This document shows, piece by piece, positions 3-13,131 of a stretch of DNA of 35,711 nt. Made by a program: the position numbers and the translations under genes. The DNA lies in NCBI GenBank assembly GCA_012800355.1, contig JAAZJL010000069.1, forward strand, positions 1-35,711, written 5' to 3'. Source of the DNA: Erysipelotrichia bacterium (GTDB lineage: Bacteria > Bacillota_I > Bacilli_A > Erysipelotrichales > Erysipelotrichaceae). Within the stretch, counting starts at the first letter, position 1; every line of letters begins with the position of its first letter. The notes beneath the pieces are model-generated. The model was not told where the DNA came from. It did no database searches and saw only the letters and a list, made by a program, of their open reading frames with translations.

Positions 3-1031
3 GATTTTGTCTTCAATTTAGCTGGTGTAAATAGACCAAAAGATAATTCTGAGTTTATGGAAGGTAATTTTGGTTTTGCTTCAAAATTGCTGAATACCCT
101 TAAAAAATATCAAAACAATTGTCCAGTAATGTTATCTAGTTCAATTCAAGCAACGTTAATTGACAGATATGGTCAATCTGATTATGGCAAAAGTAAGTTA
201 GCTGGCGAAGAACTGTTTTTTAAATATAGTGAAGAAACAAAAGCTAAAGTTTTAGTGTATCGATTCCCTAATTTGTTTGGCAAATGGTCAAGACCAAACT
301 ACAATTCTGTTGTCGCAACATTTTGTAATAATATTGCTAATGATTTACCAATTCAAGTCAACGATCCTAACACTTGGCTAGAATTAGTTTATATTGATGA
401 TTTAGTTGAGGAAATGTTTAACTGTCTACAAGGAAAAGAACAGAGATGCACATATGATGGGTTACAAGCAATTTTAGATGAAAACGGTAAATACTGCTGC
501 GTTAAAACGACTCACAAGGTTTCGTTGGGGAAAATTGTTGAACTATTAGAAACTTTCAAGCAACAACCACAGAATTTGTTGATGGTTGAGATGTCCAATG
601 ATTCATTTGAAAAGAAACTATATTCAACTTATTTGTCATATTTACCAAAAGAGAAGGTTGTTTTTGATTTGAAAATGAATGTTGATGATAGAGGTTCGTT
701 TACTGAGTTGTTAAAAACAAAAACTAATGGTCAGTTTAGTGTTAATATTTCTAAACCAGGTATAACTAAAGGTCAACACTGGCATAACAGTAAATGGGAG
801 CTTTTCATTGTGGTAAGTGGCAAGGGATTAATCCAACAAAGAAAAATTGGTAGTGACGAAGTCTTGAATTTTGAAGTAAGTGGCGAAAAAATTCAAGCAG
901 TACATATGCTTCCAGGTTATACCCATAATATAATTAATTTAAGTGAAACCGAAAATCTTGTGACATTTATGTGGGCAAATGAGATTTTTGATGTCAATCA
1001 CCCAGATACATTTTTTGAAGCAGTTAAATAA
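3..1031 (+). CDS. capF: CapF-type reductase of UDP-L-FucNAc synthesis (5' end missing)
   Basis: Bifunctional enzyme of the UDP-N-acetyl-L-fucosamine pathway. CapF/WbjC/FnlB proteins reduce the 4-keto-hexose intermediate made by CapE, using an N-terminal short-chain dehydrogenase domain followed by a C-terminal cupin. The frame is open to the left edge (it reads DFVFNLAGVNRPKD from position 3), so the true start and the NAD(P)-binding glycine motif lie outside the window. An internal ATG at 57 is not the start. The catalytic pair is in YGKSK (about 186-200). The cupin covers roughly the last 120 residues, with metal-ligand candidates in GQHWH and the following glutamate. CapG follows 14 bases downstream behind a GAGAGGAG ribosome site, supporting a shared operon. 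Confidence 0.9.
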   Translation, partial: DFVFNLAGVNRPKDNSEFMEGNFGFASKLLNTLKKYQNNCPVMLSSSIQATLIDRYGQSDYGKSKLAGEELFFKYSEETKAKVLVYRFPNLFGKWSRPNYNSVVATFCNNIANDLPIQVNDPNTWLELVYIDDLVEEMFNCLQGKEQRCTYDGLQAILDENGKYCCVKTTHKVSLGKIVELLETFKQQPQNLLMVEMSNDSFEKKLYSTYLSYLPKEKVVFDLKMNVDDRGSFTELLKTKTNGQFSVNISKPGITKGQHWHNSKWELFIVVSGKGLIQQRKIGSDEVLNFEVSGEKIQAVHMLPGYTHNIINLSETENLVTFMWANEIFDVNHPDTFFEAVK

Positions 1032-1045
1032 GAGAGGAGAAATTT

Positions 1046-2230
1046 ATGAACATGAAATTGGATTATTCAGATATTTCTTTTAAGAAAGATGGCAAACTTA
1101 AGCTATTGATTATTGTTGGAACAAGACCTGAAATCATTCGTTTGGCACCAACGATAACTAAATGTCGTAAATATTTTGATACCATATTAGCTCACACAGG
1201 ACAAAATTACGATTATTATTTGAATGAGGTATTTTTTAAGGATTTGAAATTAGATTTACCAGAAGTTTATATGGATGCTGTGGGCGATGATTTAGGTGCT
1301 ACGATAGGCAATATCATTAATTGTTCATATAAATTAATGAAACAGGTAAAGCCAGATGCTCTTTTAATTTTGGGAGATACCAACAGTTGCTTATCAGCAA
1401 TTTCAGCTAAAAGACTGCACATTCCTATTTTCCATATGGAGGCAGGAAACAGAAGTAAAGATGAATGCTTGCCTGAGGAAACAAATAGAAGAATTGTGGA
1501 TATAATTTCTGATGTCAACTTGGCTTATAGTGAGCATGCTAGAAAGTATTTACATGAATGTGGTTTGCCAAAGGAAAGAGTATATGTTACTGGTTCTCCA
1601 ATGGCAGAAGTGTTACGTCAAAACTTAAAAGAAATAGAAAACTCAGATATTCATCAAAGATTAAAGTTAGAGAAAGGAAAATATTTTCTTTTGTCAGCTC
1701 ATAGAGAAGAAAACATTGATACTGAGGAAAACTTTTTATCATTATTCAAGGCAATTAATAAGATTGCTGAAAAATATGATATGCCAATTTTATATTCTTG
1801 TCATCCTCGTTCGAAGAAAAGACTATTGGAATCAAACTTTAAGCTTGATTCACGAATTATTCAACATGAGCCACTAGGTTTCCATGATTATAACTGTCTA
1901 CAAATGAATGCTTATGCTGTCATTTCTGATTCTGGGACCTTACCAGAAGAAAGTAGTTTTTTCATTAGCGTAAATCACCCGTTTCCTGCAATAAGTATCA
2001 GAACATCTACTGAAAGACCTGAGGCTTTGGACAAAGCTTGCTTTGTGCTAGCAGGAATTGACGAAAACACCTTGTTACAAGCAGTGGAAATAGCTGTACA
2101 AATGAACAAACAAAAAGATTATGGAACTGTTGTAGCTGATTATACAGATGAAAATGTTTCAACTAAAGTAATTAAAATCATTCAAAGCTATACAAACATA
2201 GTTGATAGATTTGTTTGGAGAAAAAAGTAA
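1046..2230 (+). CDS. capG: CapG-type UDP-N-acetylglucosamine 2-epimerase family protein
   Basis: Non-hydrolysing 2-epimerase family. Its position directly after capF points to the CapG/WbjD/FnlC reaction, 2-epimerisation of UDP-2-acetamido-2,6-dideoxy-L-talose to UDP-N-acetyl-L-fucosamine, rather than to the general UDP-GlcNAc/ManNAc epimerase MnaA. The family landmarks are present: GTRPEIIRLAP at residues 25-35, HMEAGNR near 130 and SAHREEN near 217. The length (394 aa) is a little above usual because of a short N-terminal extension. ATG codons at 1046 and 1052 are both compatible with the GAGAGGAG site. The protein should be cytoplasmic. Confidence 0.9.
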   Translation: MNMKLDYSDISFKKDGKLKLLIIVGTRPEIIRLAPTITKCRKYFDTILAHTGQNYDYYLNEVFFKDLKLDLPEVYMDAVGDDLGATIGNIINCSYKLMKQVKPDALLILGDTNSCLSAISAKRLHIPIFHMEAGNRSKDECLPEETNRRIVDIISDVNLAYSEHARKYLHECGLPKERVYVTGSPMAEVLRQNLKEIENSDIHQRLKLEKGKYFLLSAHREENIDTEENFLSLFKAINKIAEKYDMPILYSCHPRSKKRLLESNFKLDSRIIQHEPLGFHDYNCLQMNAYAVISDSGTLPEESSFFISVNHPFPAISIRTSTERPEALDKACFVLAGIDENTLLQAVEIAVQMNKQKDYGTVVADYTDENVSTKVIKIIQSYTNIVDRFVWRKK

Positions 2231-2258
2231 TAAGGTAATGGGCTGGAGGTTAGATTAA

Positions 2259-3410
2259 ATGTTTTATTTTATTGTCTTTTTGTTTATGCTGATTGCTTTA
2301 CTTGCTGAAGATGAAAAAAGACACTTAGTTTTTATTGTTGAAATGATTGTATTGACTGTTATTTTAGCTATCCGATTTGGTCAAGGACCAGATTATTATT
2401 CATATTCACAATTATTTGCTTTTGCAGGCAATGGCATTGCCACCAAGGGAATTGAGATCGGTTTCTATTTTTTAATGCGCCTTTTTCAACCAAACTTTCA
2501 ATTTTTTATTGCTGTCATTTCTGTGTTTGAAATGTGGATGTTATATAGGTTTATTAATACTTATAGTAAACATAAAACATTTTCAGTTTTATTGGCTATG
2601 CCAACATTGTATTTAACATATTATTTTTCAGCAATTAGACAGGGAATAATAATTTCAGTTTTTATCGGTTATTTGTTAAACTGTCTTTTAGAAGAAAAAT
2701 GGATACAGTATTATGTGGTTTCTTTGTTATGCTGTACAATTCATTTGTCAGCAGCGATTTTTTTGTTGTTACCAATAATCAAATTTTTTGATTTGAAGAC
2801 AATGTATATATTTATAGTTTTAAGCATAATTGCAAGTTTATTATTGTCAACAGATGTTGTTAAACAAATAGTTGCATCAATTCCAATTGTTGGACCAAGA
2901 TTTGCTGTCTTTTTTAAAGGTTCATTTAGCTTTTTAGCAATTATGCACAGATATGTTGTTTTCTCCATTATTATGTTTTTATACTTACAAAGTGATAAAT
3001 CAGAACGATGTCAAAACATCATGTTGAAAATTTATATCGTTGGAATTATAGTCTACACTGTTTTTTCATTTTCACCACTAATTGCTTCAAGGTCTTCATA
3101 TTTTTTTAAGGTCTTAGAACTTGTTTTAATCCCTAATTTGTTTATTGATTATAAACATAAGGATGTTATTGCACTATTTTTTGTTTGTTTAGCATTTGTT
3201 ATGTTATATAAAAATATCGCTAGTTATATATACCAAGGTGGTTACATTATACAAAGTGTTATTGACTATCCATATATAACAATTTTTAATACTAATGATC
3301 TTTATCCATATGTAAATCCATTTTATAAAAAATTTAATTTTTTACATAATTCTTGGTTGCACGAACTTGTTGACAGTATATTTGATTTTTTTCAATATGT
3401 GTTTCAATGA
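2259..3410 (+). CDS. EpsG/Wzy-like polysaccharide polymerase
   Basis: Hydrophobic integral membrane protein of 383 residues with about ten predicted membrane segments. The motif FGQGPDYYSY near residue 40, the later SAIRQGI near residue 125 and the location between sugar-nucleotide genes and a glycosyltransferase match EpsG-family proteins. These are thought to polymerise lipid-linked repeat units on the outer face of the membrane (Wzy role). A good TGGAGG ribosome site precedes the ATG. Wzy-type proteins are poorly conserved, so the assignment rests on topology, the RQG motif and context. An exact substrate cannot be read from the sequence. Confidence 0.78.
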   Translation: MFYFIVFLFMLIALLAEDEKRHLVFIVEMIVLTVILAIRFGQGPDYYSYSQLFAFAGNGIATKGIEIGFYFLMRLFQPNFQFFIAVISVFEMWMLYRFINTYSKHKTFSVLLAMPTLYLTYYFSAIRQGIIISVFIGYLLNCLLEEKWIQYYVVSLLCCTIHLSAAIFLLLPIIKFFDLKTMYIFIVLSIIASLLLSTDVVKQIVASIPIVGPRFAVFFKGSFSFLAIMHRYVVFSIIMFLYLQSDKSERCQNIMLKIYIVGIIVYTVFSFSPLIASRSSYFFKVLELVLIPNLFIDYKHKDVIALFFVCLAFVMLYKNIASYIYQGGYIIQSVIDYPYITIFNTNDLYPYVNPFYKKFNFLHNSWLHELVDSIFDFFQYVFQ

Positions 3411-3455
3411 TTTTTAATATTTAAGTTAATAATTTAGATGAAAGGGGAAGAAGTT

Positions 3456-4658
3456 ATGAAAGTTTATGAAATTAATGTTGTGTGCGGAAAGGGTAGCACA
3501 GGAAGAATAGTTACTGATATTTATCATTCCATTTTAGAAAATGGAGGTAAGTGTAGAATAGCTTATGGAAGATATAAGGCAGATACTTCTATTAATGCAA
3601 TAAAGTTTATAGATGATTTGGATGTCTACTTACATGCTATATTGACAAGACTTACTGGAAAGCATGGCTTGTTTTCTAGCAAAGCAACCAAAAGATTAAT
3701 TGAAGATATTAAACAATTTGATCCAGATATTATCCACTTACATAATATTCATGGTTATTATTTAAATTACAAATTGTTGTTTGAATTTCTAAAAGAATAT
3801 GATAGACCAGTAGTTTGGACTTTTCATGATTGTTGGCCATTTACTGGCCATTGTGCTTATTATGATATTACAGGTTGTGATAAATGGAAGACCAAGTGTA
3901 GCAAATGTGAAAACTTTAAAGCTTATCCTGCTTCATATGTTGATAGTTCAGAAAGTAATTATCAATTGAAAAAGAAACTTTTTACAGAAATTGATAATTT
4001 GACAATAGTAACTCCATCAAAATGGCTTGCAGATGAAGTAAAACTTTCATTTTTAAAAGATAAATCAACAAAAGTAATTGCTAATGGGATTGATTTGTCA
4101 AAGTTTAACCCTCTAGAAAGTGATTTTAGAAAAATTCATGGCATTGAAAACAAAAAAATGATTTTAGGAGTAGCTAGTCCTTTTGGAAAAAGAAAAGGGT
4201 TCAGTGATTTTATCAAATTAAAAGAATTGTTAGATGAAGAATATGTCATCTGTATGGTTGGCTTAACCAAAAAGCAGCTTGAAAAATTACCTGAAGGAAT
4301 AATAGGGATTGAAAGAACAGATTCAATTAAGCAATTAGCTGAAATTTATTCAACTGCAGATATCTTTTTGAATTTAACTTATGAAGATAATTTCCCAACA
4401 ACAAATATCGAATCCTTAGCATGTGGCACACCAGTATTAACTTATGCTACAGGAGGTTCGCCTTCCATTATTGATAAGACTTGTGGTAGAGTAATTGAGA
4501 AAGGGAATTTATTTGAAACTGTCGAAGAAATTAAAAGAATGATTAAAACACCACTAGAAAGACAAAATTGTATTATAAGAAGCAAGATGTTTGATAGAAA
4601 ACTTATGGGAAAGAATTATGTGTTATTATTTGAACAGTTACTTAAAGAAAAAGATTAA
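3456..4658 (+). CDS. GT4-family glycosyltransferase
   Basis: GT-B fold glycosyltransferase, probably adding one sugar to the lipid-linked capsule repeat unit at the inner membrane face. The N-terminal domain has GKGSTGRI and a conserved WTFHDCWPFTGHCAYY block followed by cysteines (CDKWKTKCSKCENF), typical of one GT4 subgroup in capsule loci. The linker VIANGIDLSKFNP lies near residue 209 and the C-terminal nucleotide-sugar site includes PTTNIESLACGTPVLTYATGG. An ATG at 3438 is in frame, but the AAAGGGGAAG ribosome site at 3441-3450 lies inside that extension and points to the ATG at 3456. Donor and acceptor sugars are unknown. Confidence 0.88.
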   Translation: MKVYEINVVCGKGSTGRIVTDIYHSILENGGKCRIAYGRYKADTSINAIKFIDDLDVYLHAILTRLTGKHGLFSSKATKRLIEDIKQFDPDIIHLHNIHGYYLNYKLLFEFLKEYDRPVVWTFHDCWPFTGHCAYYDITGCDKWKTKCSKCENFKAYPASYVDSSESNYQLKKKLFTEIDNLTIVTPSKWLADEVKLSFLKDKSTKVIANGIDLSKFNPLESDFRKIHGIENKKMILGVASPFGKRKGFSDFIKLKELLDEEYVICMVGLTKKQLEKLPEGIIGIERTDSIKQLAEIYSTADIFLNLTYEDNFPTTNIESLACGTPVLTYATGGSPSIIDKTCGRVIEKGNLFETVEEIKRMIKTPLERQNCIIRSKMFDRKLMGKNYVLLFEQLLKEKD

Positions 4659-4707
4659 ACTCAAAAACTAAAAATAAGATAAAGAGTACCGTGTTGAGAA
4701 TTGAGGT

Positions 4708-4732
4708 ATTTGCCAAAATATTTTTGGCAAAT
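4708..4732. repeat. Perfect 11-bp inverted repeat upstream of the flippase gene
   Basis: ATTTGCCAAAA and TTTTGGCAAAT flank a 3-base loop (TAT), between the GT4 gene and the flippase gene. There is no T-run after it, so it is not a canonical terminator. It may be a leader hairpin that protects or attenuates the mRNA, or a protein-binding site. Confidence 0.6.
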
Positions 4733-4774
4733 TAATGACATTGATTCTTGATGTTAGAAAAGTGAGGGATAAGA

Positions 4775-6259
4775 ATGGATAAAAAATCAGTAAAGTATAA
4801 CTATCTAATGAATATAATATTAACAATTTCATTAATGATTATCCCTTGGATATCTTTTACTTATTATTCAAGAATTCTTCAAGCGGAAGGTATAGGTAAA
4901 GTAGAATTTGTTAACACAATAGTTAGTTATTTTAATATGATTGCTCAAATAGGGATACCAACATATGGTATTCGTGCATGTGCAAAAGTCAGAGATAACA
5001 AAAAAGCGTTATCAAAGGTTGTTCATGAACTATTAATGATTAATCTAGTTATGCTTTTCTTTACTTATATAATAATGACAATAGCAGTTTTTTCTGTTGA
5101 GAGATTTTATATTGATAAATCTTTCTATTTTATTTATTCATTTATAATGCTATTCAATGCCATTGGGGTTGAATGGTTATATAAAGCGTTAGAGAAATAC
5201 CAGTACATAACAATACGAACAATAGTTGCTAGAACTATTGCATTAATTGCTATAATTGCTTTGGTTCATAAAAAAGAAGATCTTTGGATTTATTCATCAA
5301 TAGTTGTTTTTGTTTCGTATGGAAACTTAATAATAAATTTTTTAAGAATGGGTAAATATGTTTCGTTAAAAAAACAAAATGACTATGATTTTAAAAGACA
5401 CATTAAGCCATTGTTAGTTTTCTTTGGTATTACTGTTACCACAACGATTTACTCTAATTTAAATATTACTGCTCTAGGCTTTATTAAAGGAGATGTAGCA
5501 GTAGGCTATTTTAATGTTGCGATAAAGATTAGAGCAATTTTAGTAAGCATAGTAACTTCTTTAGGTGTAGTTTTGCTTCCAAGGGTCTCGTATTATGTGG
5601 AAAATAAAATGATGGATAGTTTCGCAAATATTAGTAAAAAAGCTTTAAACTTTGTTGTGGTGGTCGGTATACCTTTGGTTGTTTATTTTATTGCCTTTAG
5701 TGAACATTCTATTCGTTTTGTTTCAGGTAATAGTTTTTTGGAAGCTGCAGTTCCTTTTGCTATTATAGTGCCAACAACTTTGTTGATGGGATTAAGCAAT
5801 ACCACTGGTGTTCAAATGCTTGTTCCTTTAGGCAAAGAAAATGCGGTATTAAAATCTCAAATTTATGCTTCAATAGTATGTGCGATTTTATGTCTTGTTT
5901 TAATTCCAAGTTTTGGACTTATTGGTGCATCATTTGTAGCTTTAATTACCGAATTAACAGTATTTGTTGTCCAGTGTTTCTGTTTGCCAAAGGAATATAG
6001 ATATATGTTAAAAGAAATTTTTAATATTAAAGCATTGGTCAGTTCTATTGCAGCTTTGTTAGTAGCATTAATGTTAAAAGATTTTTTCAGTTCAAGTTTC
6101 TGGGTTTTAGCTGTTACTTTTTCAGTTTATATTGTTGTATATGGCTTACTGCTAATATGCTTGAAAGAAAATATAACATTGGAAATACTGCGTAATATTA
6201 AAAAACTCATTAAAAAATTGATAAATAAATCGACAAGCAATGACCACTACAAACAATAA
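4775..6259 (+). CDS. Wzx-type polysaccharide flippase
   Basis: Polytopic membrane protein of 494 residues with about 12-14 hydrophobic segments. The N-terminus (YNYLMNIILTISLMIIPW, then YYSRILQAEGIGKVEF) is characteristic of oligosaccharide flippases of the MATE/MVF superfamily. Such proteins move the undecaprenyl-linked repeat unit across the membrane before Wzy polymerisation. A GAGGGAT ribosome site is spaced properly before the ATG at 4775. The last codons (N-D-H-Y-K-Q) overlap one arm of the AGTGGTCA-type inverted repeat that recurs around the next gene. The reading frame is intact. Confidence 0.9.
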   Translation: MDKKSVKYNYLMNIILTISLMIIPWISFTYYSRILQAEGIGKVEFVNTIVSYFNMIAQIGIPTYGIRACAKVRDNKKALSKVVHELLMINLVMLFFTYIIMTIAVFSVERFYIDKSFYFIYSFIMLFNAIGVEWLYKALEKYQYITIRTIVARTIALIAIIALVHKKEDLWIYSSIVVFVSYGNLIINFLRMGKYVSLKKQNDYDFKRHIKPLLVFFGITVTTTIYSNLNITALGFIKGDVAVGYFNVAIKIRAILVSIVTSLGVVLLPRVSYYVENKMMDSFANISKKALNFVVVVGIPLVVYFIAFSEHSIRFVSGNSFLEAAVPFAIIVPTTLLMGLSNTTGVQMLVPLGKENAVLKSQIYASIVCAILCLVLIPSFGLIGASFVALITELTVFVVQCFCLPKEYRYMLKEIFNIKALVSSIAALLVALMLKDFFSSSFWVLAVTFSVYIVVYGLLLICLKENITLEILRNIKKLIKKLINKSTSNDHYKQ

Positions 6260-6270
6260 AATAGTGGTCA
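6241..6270. repeat. AGTGGTCA-type inverted repeat, copy pair 1
   Basis: TGACCACTA (6241-6249) and TAGTGGTCA (6262-6270) form a perfect 9-bp inverted repeat with a 12-base spacer. The half-site centres are 21 bp apart, two DNA turns. The left arm lies inside the last codons of the flippase gene. The same core returns at 6336-6363, so it is more likely a binding site than a chance terminator; no T-run follows. Confidence 0.8.
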
Positions 6271-6305
6271 CATTATTAAAAACAGTGTAAAACAAGCCAA
6301 ATATA

Positions 6306-6334
6306 TTGACTATATGGTACATAAAATGTAAAAT
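6306..6334 (+). promoter_or_regulatory. Promoter of the integrase-domain/PglD fusion gene
   Basis: TTGACT (6306-6311) and TAAAAT (6329-6334) are separated by 17 bases, a good SigA-type match. Transcription should start near 6341, inside the following AAGTGGTCA repeat, which is where a repressor site would be expected. Confidence 0.7.
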
Positions 6335-6335
6335 T

Positions 6336-6363
6336 AAGTGGTCAGGCGATGGTTTGACCACTT
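6336..6363. promoter_or_regulatory. AGTGGTCA-type inverted repeat over the start site, possible operator
   Basis: AAGTGGTCA (6336-6344) and TGACCACTT (6355-6363) form a perfect 9-bp inverted repeat with a 10-base spacer. Half-site centres are 19 bp apart. The repeat begins right after the -10 box and ends just before the AGGGAG ribosome site. Because transcription should begin inside the left arm, most of the hairpin could not form in the mRNA from this promoter, which favours a DNA-level operator. Binding by the downstream fusion protein is an inference. Confidence 0.65.
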
Positions 6364-6376
6364 TTAGGGAGCACAT

Positions 6377-6991
6377 ATGAAAAAGGGAAATAATATCCGA
6401 TTAAGAAAAGATGGTAGATATGAAGCAAGATACGAAAAAGGTAGAACTTCAAATAATAAAATAGTCTACGGTTATTGTTATGGGCAAACCTATCAAGAAG
6501 CTGAAGAAAAAAGAAATCAAAAGATTTCGCAAATAAGACCATTAAAAGAATTAAACTTGCTGATACTAGGAGCTGGAAGTCATGGACAAGAAGTTTATGA
6601 AATAGCAAAATTGCATAGAATGTTTGGAAAGATAGATTTTTTGGATGATGATGAAAGCAAAAATCCTTTAGGGCCTTGCAAAGATTTCGAAAAATACTTG
6701 CCAGAATATAAAGTAGCAATAGCAGCAGTTGGCGATGAAAGTTTAAGGATTAAATGGATGTATCAGTTAGTTGAAGCTGGTTTTGTAATTCCAATATTAA
6801 TTCATCCAGCAGCAATTATTTCCGATAGCGTACAGATAAATTGCGGAACAGTTATTTGTGCCATGGCTACAATAGGAACAAATGCTAAAATTGGAAGAGG
6901 ATGCATTATTTCTTCAGGAGCAACCATAAAAAGAAATGTTATCTTGGAAGACTGGCAATATGTTGATTATGGAGAAGTGGTTAACCACTAA
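6377..6991 (+). CDS. Integrase arm-binding domain fused to a truncated PglD/NeuD-like domain
   Basis: Two-part protein of 204 residues. Residues 1 to about 52 resemble the N-terminal arm-site DNA-binding domain of tyrosine integrases of the Tn916/lambda type: RKDGRY at 10-15, an aromatic strand, IVYGYCYG and TYQEAEEKRNQK. No catalytic integrase domain follows. Instead, residues 60-204 resemble PglD/NeuD sugar acyltransferases, with a nucleotide-sugar-binding start (GAGSHG 65-70) and left-handed beta-helix repeats from IHP (142-144). A gap-free comparison with the neighbouring acyltransferase places Arg186 where the neighbour has its likely catalytic His137. The protein then ends 18 residues later, so the acetyl-CoA half is missing. 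It is probably a DNA-binding regulator sensing a UDP-sugar, not an enzyme. It has its own promoter and flanking inverted repeats, and an AGGGAG site precedes the ATG. Confidence 0.75.
   Translation: MKKGNNIRLRKDGRYEARYEKGRTSNNKIVYGYCYGQTYQEAEEKRNQKISQIRPLKELNLLILGAGSHGQEVYEIAKLHRMFGKIDFLDDDESKNPLGPCKDFEKYLPEYKVAIAAVGDESLRIKWMYQLVEAGFVIPILIHPAAIISDSVQINCGTVICAMATIGTNAKIGRGCIISSGATIKRNVILEDWQYVDYGEVVNH
6976..6989. repeat. 14-bp perfect palindrome AGTGGTTAACCACT
   Basis: Lies over the last codons of the fusion gene (V-V-N-H-stop). Its half-site AGTGGTTA differs from the AGTGGTCA core upstream by one base, so the gene is bracketed by related palindromic sites. It could be a further binding site or a coincidence of the C-terminal codons. 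Confidence 0.5.
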
Positions 6992-7009
6992 GAAAGAGAA
7001 GTAAAAAAT

Positions 7010-7654
7010 ATGAAAGATTTAGTAATTATTGGAGCTGGTGGTTTTGGAAGAGAAGTAGCAGAATATGTTAGAGCAATCAATGAAGAAACACCTACATGGA
7101 ATTTTTTAGGTTTTATTGATGATGGTAAAGCAGAGACTCCAGAAGGTCATAGAATTCTGGGCAATTTAGATTATCTATTAGGATTAAAAGAAAAACCATA
7201 TTTTGCTATTGCTATTGCAAATTCAGTAGTTAGAGAAAAAATGGCTAACAGATGTCTTGAAGCTCAATTACCAGCAGCAACAATCATTCACCCAACAACC
7301 TTAATTGGACCAAATTGTGAAATTGGTGAGGGTTGTATAATTTGTAGAAACTGTCACTTAACTACAAATGTTAAAATCGGAAAATTCAACATCATCAATG
7401 GTCGTTGTAGTATTGGGCATGATGCTGTAATGGGTGATTATTGCAGTATGATGACAAGTGCTTTAATTGGTGGTGAAACTAATATCGGAAACCATAACTA
7501 TTTTGGTTTGCGTTGTACAATGATTAACTTAATTGATACGTGTGATCATTGTACTTTTGGTGCTTGTGCTTGTATTGTAAAAGATACAACAGAACCTGGA
7601 ACTTATGTTGGAGTTCCAGCAAAGAAAATTAAACCTTGGATAGGAAATGAATAA
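7010..7654 (+). CDS. PglD/NeuD-family sugar O- or N-acyltransferase
   Basis: Complete 214-residue sugar acyltransferase. The N-terminal domain begins MKDLVIIGAGGFGREVAEYV, a Rossmann-like nucleotide-sugar-binding fold. The C-terminal left-handed beta-helix runs from IHPTTLIGPNCEIGEG through CSIGHDAVMGD to the family ending GTYVGVPAKKIKPW. His137 in GHD is the likely catalytic base by analogy with PglD. It probably transfers an acetyl group to a capsule sugar or its nucleotide precursor. It lies 18 bases after the truncated fusion paralogue, so the two are probably cotranscribed. The sugar substrate is unknown. Confidence 0.88.
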   Translation: MKDLVIIGAGGFGREVAEYVRAINEETPTWNFLGFIDDGKAETPEGHRILGNLDYLLGLKEKPYFAIAIANSVVREKMANRCLEAQLPAATIIHPTTLIGPNCEIGEGCIICRNCHLTTNVKIGKFNIINGRCSIGHDAVMGDYCSMMTSALIGGETNIGNHNYFGLRCTMINLIDTCDHCTFGACACIVKDTTEPGTYVGVPAKKIKPWIGNE

Positions 7655-11119: not shown

Positions 11120-12166
11120 ATGAAAATATTTGAAAGAAAAAATATAATAGTTCAACAGCCTGAAATTTTTGAAGGCGAATATGTTTTGGATGTTGAAGAT
11201 TTAAAAATAAGATATGAAACTGACGATGCAGTAGTATATGCGGTTAATGGAATTGATTTAAAACTAAAAAGAAAACAAACATTGGGTTTAGTAGGAGAAA
11301 CTGGTGCTGGGAAAACTAGCACGGTTTTAGCTTTACTGAAGCTAATTCCAACTCCTCCTGGTGTAGTTGAGGCTAAAAAGATTTTAGTTAATGGCAAGGA
11401 TGTTATGACTTTATCTGATAAAGAACTTCAACACATTCGTGGCAATGAAATAGCTATGGTGTTTCAAGATCCAATGACTTCTTTAGATCCAGTTTATACT
11501 GTTGGTGAACAAATAGCTGAAAGTTATATGATTCATGATAAATTAAGTAAAAAAGAAGCTTTAGAAGAAGCCAAAAAAATGTTGGAAATTGTTGGTATTC
11601 CGGCAGAAAGAAGTACAGATTTTCCTTATCAATTTTCAGGAGGGATGAAACAGAGAGTTGTTATAGCTATTGCTTTGGCATGTCGTCCAAACATTCTGAT
11701 TGCTGATGAACCTACCACAGCATTAGATGTTACTATACAGTCACAAGTTTTAGATTTGATGAAAAAATTAAACGAACAATATCAAACATCAACAATCATG
11801 ATTACTCATGATTTAGGAATTGTTGCTGAAACATGTGATGAAGTTGCTGTTATGTATGCGGGTCAAATTGTTGAAAAGGGAACTCTTGAAGATGTTTTTG
11901 AAAATACGAAACATCCTTATACTGAAGGGTTATTTAATTCATTGCCAAATATGAATGATAGAAATTCAAAACTGAATCCAATTAAAGGATTGATTCCAGA
12001 TCCAACAATTGTTTTTGCAGGTTGTCCATTTGCTGAGCGATGCAGATATGCTAAGGAAAAATGTTTTAAGCAAAAGCCAACTGTCAAGCATTTAAGCGAA
12101 AGTCATCAAGTAAAGTGTCTAAGATATGATGAGGTAGACTTCAAGATTGAGAGGGCCTTAAAATGA
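11120..12166 (+). CDS. dppD: ABC importer ATPase, DppD/OppD family
   Basis: Nucleotide-binding subunit of 348 residues. Walker A is GETGAGKTS, the Q-loop is VFQDPMTSLDP, the ABC signature is an intact FSGGMKQR, Walker B is ILIADEPTTALD and the switch histidine is in MITHD. The C-terminal oligopeptide-transporter domain has the cysteine pattern CPFAERCRYAKEKC, which in some family members binds an iron-sulphur cluster. The stop overlaps the start of the next ATPase gene by four bases, so translation is probably coupled and the two ATPases pair as a heterodimer. Confidence 0.93.
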   Translation: MKIFERKNIIVQQPEIFEGEYVLDVEDLKIRYETDDAVVYAVNGIDLKLKRKQTLGLVGETGAGKTSTVLALLKLIPTPPGVVEAKKILVNGKDVMTLSDKELQHIRGNEIAMVFQDPMTSLDPVYTVGEQIAESYMIHDKLSKKEALEEAKKMLEIVGIPAERSTDFPYQFSGGMKQRVVIAIALACRPNILIADEPTTALDVTIQSQVLDLMKKLNEQYQTSTIMITHDLGIVAETCDEVAVMYAGQIVEKGTLEDVFENTKHPYTEGLFNSLPNMNDRNSKLNPIKGLIPDPTIVFAGCPFAERCRYAKEKCFKQKPTVKHLSESHQVKCLRYDEVDFKIERALK

Positions 12167-13131
12167 GTGAAGTATTATTGAAGGTAATTGACTTAAAAAA
12201 ATATTTTAAAACCCCTAAAGGAATGCTACGTGCTGTTGATGGAGTAAGTTTTACTATTGAAAAAGGTAAGACTTTAGGTATTGTTGGTGAATCTGGATGT
12301 GGAAAATCAACAACTGGAAGAAGCATTTTAAGACTTACTGAACCAACAAGTGGTCAAGTAATTTTTGATGGAAAAGATATTTTGAAATTGTCAAAAAAAG
12401 AAATGGTTGCTATGCGCAAGGAAATGCAAATCATTTTTCAAGACCCATTTTCATCTTTAGATCCAAAGATGACAGTTAGTCAATTAATTAAAGAGCCACT
12501 TGTTATTCACAAGATTTATACAAATAATGAAGACATTGAAAAAAGGATTCGTGAATTAATGGAGCTTGTTGGACTAACTCCAAGATTATATGATTCATAT
12601 CCTCATGAATTAGATGGTGGAAGAAGACAAAGAATTGGAATTGCTAGAGCTTTAGCGGTTAATCCAAAGTTTATTGTTTGTGATGAACCAGTATCAGCTT
12701 TAGATGTCTCAATTCAAGCGCAAATATTAAATTTGTTAAAAGAGTTACAAGAGAAACTTGATTTAACATATATATTTGTTACGCACGATTTATCAGTTGT
12801 TTACTATTTTGCTGATGATATTGCAGTAATGTATTTAGGTAAATTAGTTGAAAAAGCTCCAGCTGAAGAGTTGTTTGCTAATCCAAAACATCCTTATACC
12901 CAAGCCTTACTGTCTGCTATTCCTTCAGTGGATATTAGGAAGAAAAAAGAAAGAATTATTTTGAAAGGTGAAATAACTTCGCCAATCAATTTGCCAGATT
13001 ATTGTCGATTTGCCAATAGATGTAGTTATTGCCAACAGGATTGTAAAAATGGCGATCCAAAATTAGTGGAAATTAGTCCAAATCATTTTGTTGCTTGTTT
13101 TCACCCATTAGGAAAGGAAGGAATATTATGA
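12163..13131 (+). CDS. dppF: ABC importer ATPase, DppF/OppF family, altered signature motif
   Basis: Second ATPase subunit, 322 residues. Walker A is GESGCGKST, the Q-loop IFQDPFSSLDP, Walker B FIVCDEPVSALD and the H-loop VTHD. The ABC signature reads LDGGRRQR instead of LSGGQ(R/K)QR: the serine that contacts ATP gamma-phosphate is Asp and the Gln is Arg. One of the two composite ATP sites may therefore hydrolyse slowly; from memory the same variant occurs in other clostridial DppF-like proteins. The C-terminal cysteine motif CRFANRCSYCQQDC is present. It overlaps dppD by 4 bases and the CoA-transferase gene by 4 bases. Confidence 0.92.
   Translation: MSEVLLKVIDLKKYFKTPKGMLRAVDGVSFTIEKGKTLGIVGESGCGKSTTGRSILRLTEPTSGQVIFDGKDILKLSKKEMVAMRKEMQIIFQDPFSSLDPKMTVSQLIKEPLVIHKIYTNNEDIEKRIRELMELVGLTPRLYDSYPHELDGGRRQRIGIARALAVNPKFIVCDEPVSALDVSIQAQILNLLKELQEKLDLTYIFVTHDLSVVYYFADDIAVMYLGKLVEKAPAEELFANPKHPYTQALLSAIPSVDIRKKKERIILKGEITSPINLPDYCRFANRCSYCQQDCKNGDPKLVEISPNHFVACFHPLGKEGIL

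Follow-up and report, generated by a model that had tools for sequence, protein, structure and literature searches.

Four copies of an 8-bp word upstream of an integrase arm–PglD fusion gene in an Erysipelotrichia surface-polysaccharide locus: a candidate self-recognised operator

The question raised by this locus is what reads an 8-bp word, AGTGGTCA, that is found in four exact copies between a polysaccharide flippase gene and the short gene that follows it, which encodes a fusion of an integrase arm domain with a PglD-like domain. The window (the whole stretch of DNA that was analysed, 35,711 nucleotides) is one entire contig of a 1.48-Mb genome that is 80.7% complete, and it starts within a capsule locus. 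This surface-polysaccharide locus spans positions 57-7654 and consists of sugar epimerases, an EpsG-type polymerase, a glycosyltransferase, the flippase, the fusion gene and a PglD-type acetyltransferase, the last of which is probably on the same transcript as the fusion (Table 1). The answer that we favour, with a confidence somewhat better than even, is that the four half-sites form an operator that would be bound by the fusion's own arm domain, mainly repressing the fusion gene itself and the acetyltransferase gene.

The four copies, at 6241 (-), 6263 (+), 6337 (+) and 6355 (-), make up the two inverted pairs that an earlier note on this DNA had placed at 6241-6270 and 6336-6363, and all four 8-mers are exact. 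Their arms lengthen to 9 bp with 100% complementarity, pair 1 reading TGACCACTA-N12-TAGTGGTCA and pair 2 AAGTGGTCA-N10-TGACCACTT, and the distances of 21 and 19 bp given in that note match the centre-to-centre spacing of these 9-mers (22 and 18 bp for the 8-mers). No other copy had been noticed in the window by eye, which has to be corrected: a fifth one lies at 12349 (+), within the ORF at 12163-13131, which brings the count in the window to five, against 0.59 expected, a number that none of 100 shuffles reached. The word is not enriched genome-wide, as judged from 30 copies in 1.48 Mb compared with 67 for the reversed control word, and the concern that it might simply be common was thereby removed. 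Both AGTGGTCA-N(3-25)-TGACCACT and TGACCACT-N(3-30)-AGTGGTCA have a single occurrence in the genome, at the fusion promoter. AGTGGTCA, uncommon in the genome, is strongly clustered at this locus. A genome-wide regulon defined by this word was considered and rejected, since the 8-mer is not enriched and no further exact pair exists in the genome; an extra TGACCACT-N-AGTGGTCA in a genome of the same genus (G073, L097) falls within the gene for a UvrD-type helicase and was taken as chance.

Between the two pairs lies TTGACT-N17-TAAAAT, which had been proposed as the promoter of the fusion gene and scores highest (10/12) among the sigma-70-like matches of the region, such matches being common by chance (6 in the region vs 5.0 expected). 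Half-site 2a is separated from the -10 box by 2 bp, and transcription that began about 7 nt 3' of this box would start in 6337-6344, so that pair 2 would cover the start as had been suggested. Autorepression is the simplest reading of this layout because occupation of 2a over the predicted start should hinder RNA polymerase. The -35 box may itself belong to the operator, since TTGACT is the reverse complement of AGTCAA and its reverse strand thus contains AGTCA, an arm-type core.

Table 1. Coordinates of the features discussed (positions in the window unless a contig is named)
Feature	Position	Strand	Basis or remark
Polysaccharide flippase (Wzx type), upstream neighbour of the fusion	4775..6259	+	PF01943 E 1.4e-23
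Half-site 1a (AGTGGTCA), left arm of pair 1, overlapping the 3' end of the flippase ORF	6241..6248	-	exact match
Half-site 1b, right arm of pair 1	6263..6270	+	exact match
-35 hexamer TTGACT	6306..6311	+	promoter scan
-10 hexamer TAAAAT	6329..6334	+	promoter scan
Half-site 2a, over the predicted transcription start	6337..6344	+	exact match
Half-site 2b, directly 5' of the ribosome-binding site	6355..6362	-	exact match
Fusion gene (204 aa), integrase arm domain joined to a PglD-like domain that lacks the catalytic His	6377..6991	+	
Arm DNA-binding domain, aa 1-56	6377..6544	+	58-60% identity to integrase N-termini
PglD_N domain, aa 60-130, Asp-Asp of UDP-sugar site kept	6554..6766	+	PF17836 E 1.4e-10
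Arg186 codon, at the position of PglD catalytic His125	6932..6934	+	alignment
Perfect palindrome AGTGGTTAACCACT across last codons and stop of the fusion	6976..6989	.	identical in AS22
PglD-type acetyltransferase, intact, catalytic His kept, next after the fusion	7010..7654	+	domain match + alignment
G157 frameshifted fusion homologue	L068:8780-9440	minus	in EPS locus

In a scan of genome contigs, a close homologue of the fusion was found solely in the Erysipelotrichia MAG AS22ysBPME_220 (contig L020, AS22 hereafter). The intact fusion is therefore present in two genomes of one genus, and conservation rests on a single close comparison. In that comparison, half-sites 1a, 1b and 2a are conserved at 24/24 bases (8/8 each for 1b and 2a) and all four half-sites at 30/32, the promoter hexamers at 12/12 (6/6 for TTGACT and 6/6 for TAAAAT) and the remaining spacer at 51/90, the difference between half-site bases and the rest of the spacer being significant (Fisher P 5e-5). 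The spacer of pair 1 is of the same length in AS22 and has diverged, as has the spacer between the promoter hexamers (17 in the window vs 18 in AS22), and 1b and 2a keep a distance of 74 bp in the two genomes despite indels. Coding does not explain the conservation of half-site 1a, since the flippase stop differs between the two: in AS22, the gene ends at the TGA of 1a, whereas in the window it continues to the TAA at 6257-6259. The expectation that the sites would be kept beside homologues held for 30 of the 32 bases in AS22 and for TTGACCACT in the second homologue described below, but failed for half-site 2b, which is broken in AS22 (TTGA-TACT). The earlier argument from half-sites about two helical turns apart is correspondingly weak, because pair 2 has lost its symmetry in AS22 along with its right half.

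The repeats might act as RNA, with pair 1 serving the flippase operon as an intrinsic terminator and pair 2 forming a leader hairpin, which we consider distinctly unlikely. Pair 1 does form a 9-bp hairpin in the window (z -4.9) and, in AS22 (L020:5000-5035), an extended stem with TTTTTTATTTT after it (z -6.7) that is plausibly an intrinsic terminator of the flippase gene, but the hairpin in the window is without a T-run and no intrinsic terminator was called there. As for pair 2, it straddles the start site, so that a transcript would include just part of its left arm; shuffled sequences fold as well as the leader from 6341 does, and AS22 lacks the right arm. An RNA role would moreover leave unexplained why the 8-mer is there four times and why it is present at integrase genes (see below). 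A double role for pair 1, as terminator and operator, is possible. The AS22 stem runs on into TTTTTTATTTTT, and a terminator of that form is absent from the window.

When 315 genomes of the order were searched for fusions, a single further one was found, in G157, which belongs to another family. This frameshifted pseudogene is part of another polysaccharide locus, with a UDP-GlcNAc 2-epimerase gene on one side and, directly after it, a sugar-transferase gene; its arm is 72% identical over 29 aa, its PglD part about 46%, and it has the same His-less 'DWxYxDY' end. TTGACCACT lies 31 bp before its probable start (23 bp in the window, as half-site 2b) and near-copies upstream read TGACTACT-CAA-TGTGGTCA, in an arrangement that differs from that of the window. 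No other fusion was detected among viral contigs or in samples of the class and phylum, and plasmids held only PglD enzymes and separate integrases. Decay of the G157 gene would fit an explanation in which the sites are functionless relics of the integrase cassette that supplied the arm domain, and capture of a 5' end would carry such sites along, since integrase genes have them at both ends. We nevertheless give this explanation hardly any credence: conservation of the site and promoter bases is clearly higher than that of the other spacer bases, the symmetric layout and a 74-bp spacing held over compensating indels are unlike drift, and the core inverted repeats that flank integrases are absent at the fusion. 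An invertible or mobile cassette around the fusion was rejected on the same ground, its best flanking 24-mer pair scoring 16/24, where 29/30 random pairs scored 15-19.

The N-terminal part of the fusion ties it to site-specific recombinases. Its arm domain is 58-60% identical (E down to 9e-15) to the N-termini of tyrosine integrases of 370-400 aa that come from the host's own bacterial family, with R10, D12, G13, R14, E16, R18, Y31 and K45 invariant, and it is predicted to fold as beta-beta-beta-alpha (E7-9, E15-23, E29-36, H39-53; mean pLDDT 86.9). In structural comparison, Foldseek gave no relevant match to the arm model at E<=0.001, and the N-domain of Tn916 Int (1bb8) appeared only in a second comparison, as a weak match (Z 4.2, 24% identity, 49 residues aligned at an rmsd of 1.9 A) next to plant AP2 domains (Z about 5), scores that alone are insufficient for homology to either. 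A PDB sequence search with the arm profile produced no relevant match, PF14657 was matched by 1/17 arm-family members, below the cut-off, and not by the fusion itself, and AP2 was matched by 6/17. The tyrosine recombinase catalytic R...H-x-x-R...Y is absent, only PglD_N and hexapeptide matches being found after aa 56.

This C-terminal part corresponds to PglD_N plus the first turns of the beta-helix. According to residue roles established for PglD (PMC8040287), the Asp-Asp pair that binds the UDP-sugar is retained in the alignment; the catalytic His, which is found in all aligned PglD homologues (taken from relatives), is Arg186 in both intact fusions, and both end about 18 residues later, leaving an incomplete beta-helix whose second half is gone. 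Between the window and AS22, the fusion has dN 0.025 and dS 0.575 (dN/dS 0.04 overall, 0.17 for the arm and 0.02 for the PglD part), and the neighbouring acetyltransferase has dN 0.019 and dS 0.459 (also 0.04), a degree of purifying selection which argues that the fusion is a maintained protein, not debris. Retention of a nucleotide-sugar domain without catalysis suggests a sensor, and the working-looking PglD encoded just behind suggests itself as the obvious target of feedback, sugar sensing as such being a conjecture.

If the arm domain is the reader of the motif, integrases with similar arms should have similar sites, and this is what was observed. We compiled 21 integrase genes with a related arm domain, of which 19 belong to the order and two are carried by Enterococcus plasmids, and counted motifs in the 70 bp preceding the start and around the stop. 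TGGTCA, the most enriched 6-mer in these segments, was found 27 times vs 1.33 expected (largest value in 500 shuffles, 5), at 12 of the 21 loci (7/13 clusters at 60% identity) and at a density of 9.2/kb, compared with 0.44/kb in gene interiors and far flanks. Direct GTCA repeats 12-13 bp apart number 26 near integrases and one in three times as many control segments, with 67 cores on the strand of the integrase gene vs 11 on the opposite strand. About half of the integrases use variants instead of TGGTCA, CCGTCA and TAGTCA being common ones, and examples include AAGTGGTCAGATTATGTGGTCAAAA immediately 3' of the stop of the L069 integrase and TTAGTGGTCAATAATATGGTCAA at the end of the L070 integrase. 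These repeats are probably the arm sites of the integrases. In the window's own genome, a search for 12-bp direct TGGTCA repeats returned only scattered one-mismatch matches, fewer than for the reversed control.

A site matrix built from the integrase sites alone was then scanned over the fusion loci. In the 18-kb stretch of G157, the two half-sites upstream of the fusion rank first and third, and in the 13.7 kb of AS22 the sites rank second and fourth. In the window, half-site 1b ranks third and the TTGACT (-35) site second, in-gene sites at 725 and 15631 are also high, and 1a, 2a and 2b are outside the 15 best. The motif is thus tied to the arm domain, since it marks integrase genes that share only this domain with the fusion, and self-recognition by the fused domain, which the earlier note had offered as an economical model, gains support both from this association and from the conservation of sites beside homologues. 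Control of the fusion gene by an unrelated transcription factor would suit inverted repeats about two turns apart, which are typical of dimeric regulators, but it is very improbable, given that the core motif independently marks integrase genes with the arm domain in common and that the genome has no other exact paired sites that could form a regulon. A further possible site is the palindrome AGTGGTTAACCACT (Table 1), which resembles the half-site with one mismatch per half and might be a downstream site, being weak evidence because it is partly coding; its position is the gene end, where integrase genes likewise have a site.

Sites at integrases and at the fusion differ in layout, the former being mostly direct repeats and the latter inverted pairs. 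Integrase genes have in addition inverted, often palindromic flanking repeats of 20-25 bp at about a dozen of the 21 loci, where the best 24-mer inverted pair has 19-24 matches. These compact cassettes (L070, L071, L072, L074, L076, L077, L078, L079, L081, L084, L086 and L087) consist of the integrase gene, GTCA direct repeats at both ends and flanking palindromic inverted repeats such as TTCGTAGAGTACATTACTCCACGAA, and they are candidate phase switches in which the recombinase lies inside the invertible segment. Capsule genes follow several cassettes, of the NusG type (L070, L073 and L081, with L076 beside one) or of the Wzz/kinase type (L086 and L087). In two genomes of one genus, the related cassettes L071 and L072 have the same surroundings, downstream of groEL, but are in opposite orientation relative to groEL and the shared next gene, as if inverted. 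Invertons of surface-polysaccharide loci (PMC11892184) are comparable in that the related integrase genes are between inverted repeats and several of them at capsule-type operons, whereas the fusion gene itself has no inverted core repeats around it.

This setting brings in one more explanation, in which the fusion is chiefly a competitor of a capsule-locus recombinase: sharing its arm-site specificity but not its catalysis, the fusion would prevent or modulate the flipping of a promoter cassette at another place, such as the head of the capsule locus, the sites at its own promoter being a secondary feedback. That the arm family is that of integrases in inverted-repeat cassettes, several of which are directly before NusG-like or Wzz/kinase capsule genes, and that the fusion is itself in a polysaccharide locus, both speak for it. 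We regard it as unlikely, since no integrase with this arm was found at E<=1 in the window's genome (80.7% complete, with the contig beginning inside the capsule locus) and a second exact site pair is absent from that genome.

The autorepression that we favour would work as follows, the DNA binding, repression, looping, oligomeric state and ligand of the fusion being what we infer from features that were computed directly (the sites, the conservation of sites and promoter, the fusion itself, purifying selection, loss of the His and the association of the motif with integrases). The arm domain would derive from a family of tyrosine recombinases with TGGTCA/GTCA direct repeats bracketing their own genes, the catalytic part having been replaced by a PglD-like nucleotide-sugar domain without catalytic His. 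The resulting protein, probably oligomeric (left-handed beta-helix acetyltransferases are trimers, PMC8040287, as this truncated form may be), would bind (i) 2a, together with 2b in the window species, over the transcription start and (ii) pair 1, about 94 bp upstream from centre to centre, a separation of about nine turns that is compatible with bridging by an oligomer. Binding would keep the fusion promoter and the intact PglD gene that follows under repression, possibly by looping, and a UDP-sugar in the PglD_N pocket may modulate it. A more ambitious version, a distinct class of metabolite-sensing capsule repressor that arose when a catalytically dead sugar-nucleotide enzyme captured the arm of a phase-variation recombinase, reads recombinase arm sites and possibly couples sugar supply to the operon and to a recombinational switch, is conceivable, and we hold it with considerable doubt.

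The fusion is made of known parts, namely an integrase arm domain, a PglD fold and autoregulation. Like the arm domains of Tn916 Int-type proteins, it has a predicted three-stranded sheet plus helix and short repeated DNA sites near its gene, 1bb8 being its closest solved integrase domain (a weak match to a common fold), but it has no core-binding or catalytic domain, and where those proteins have direct repeats at an att site, the fusion has inverted pairs around a promoter. An integrase that represses its own promoter has been demonstrated experimentally (IntI of PAI I in E. coli 536; PMC7286903), and in the fusion, which has no recombinase part, regulation would be the sole remaining function. 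With the PglD/NeuD N-acetyltransferases, it shares the PglD_N domain, the start of a left-handed beta-helix and the UDP-sugar Asp-Asp, and differs by Arg186 in place of the catalytic His, by a helix truncated after a few turns and by an extra DNA-binding N-terminus. The Rex family likewise joins a DNA-binding domain to a Rossmann nucleotide-binding domain, and a Rex chain was the first Foldseek match of the whole-fusion model, with only E 0.04 and a TM of about 0.38, which is merely suggestive given the middling quality of that model (pLDDT 71.7, pTM 0.49); the DNA-binding fold differs and another nucleotide ligand is expected, so that this is a likeness of layout and not membership.

In the literature searched, no description was found of this combination of domains or of the arm-site motif of the integrase family, and searches for Tn916 arm repeats and arm-PglD fusions returned nothing usable. 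If the reading that we favour is correct, the locus would illustrate a route from recombination machinery to ordinary gene regulation, in which the DNA-reading domain of an integrase, joined to a former sugar enzyme, keeps its old sites as an operator. The TGGTCA/GTCA repeats (12-13 bp) would also provide a motif whose recognition can be tested for an integrase family of Erysipelotrichia-type bacteria, several members of which seem to be switch cassettes preceding capsule operons.

Two smaller observations concern the locus as a whole. The EpsG-type gene (2259-3410) has no counterpart in AS22, where epimerase and glycosyltransferase follow each other directly (L020 2231-2245). The contigs of the two species also start at the same base: positions 1-127 of the window are identical to 1-127 of L020, beyond which identity falls to about 88%. 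This shared start is probably an assembly break at a common 127-mer, which would imply that both species come from one metagenome and have recently exchanged capsule DNA upstream.
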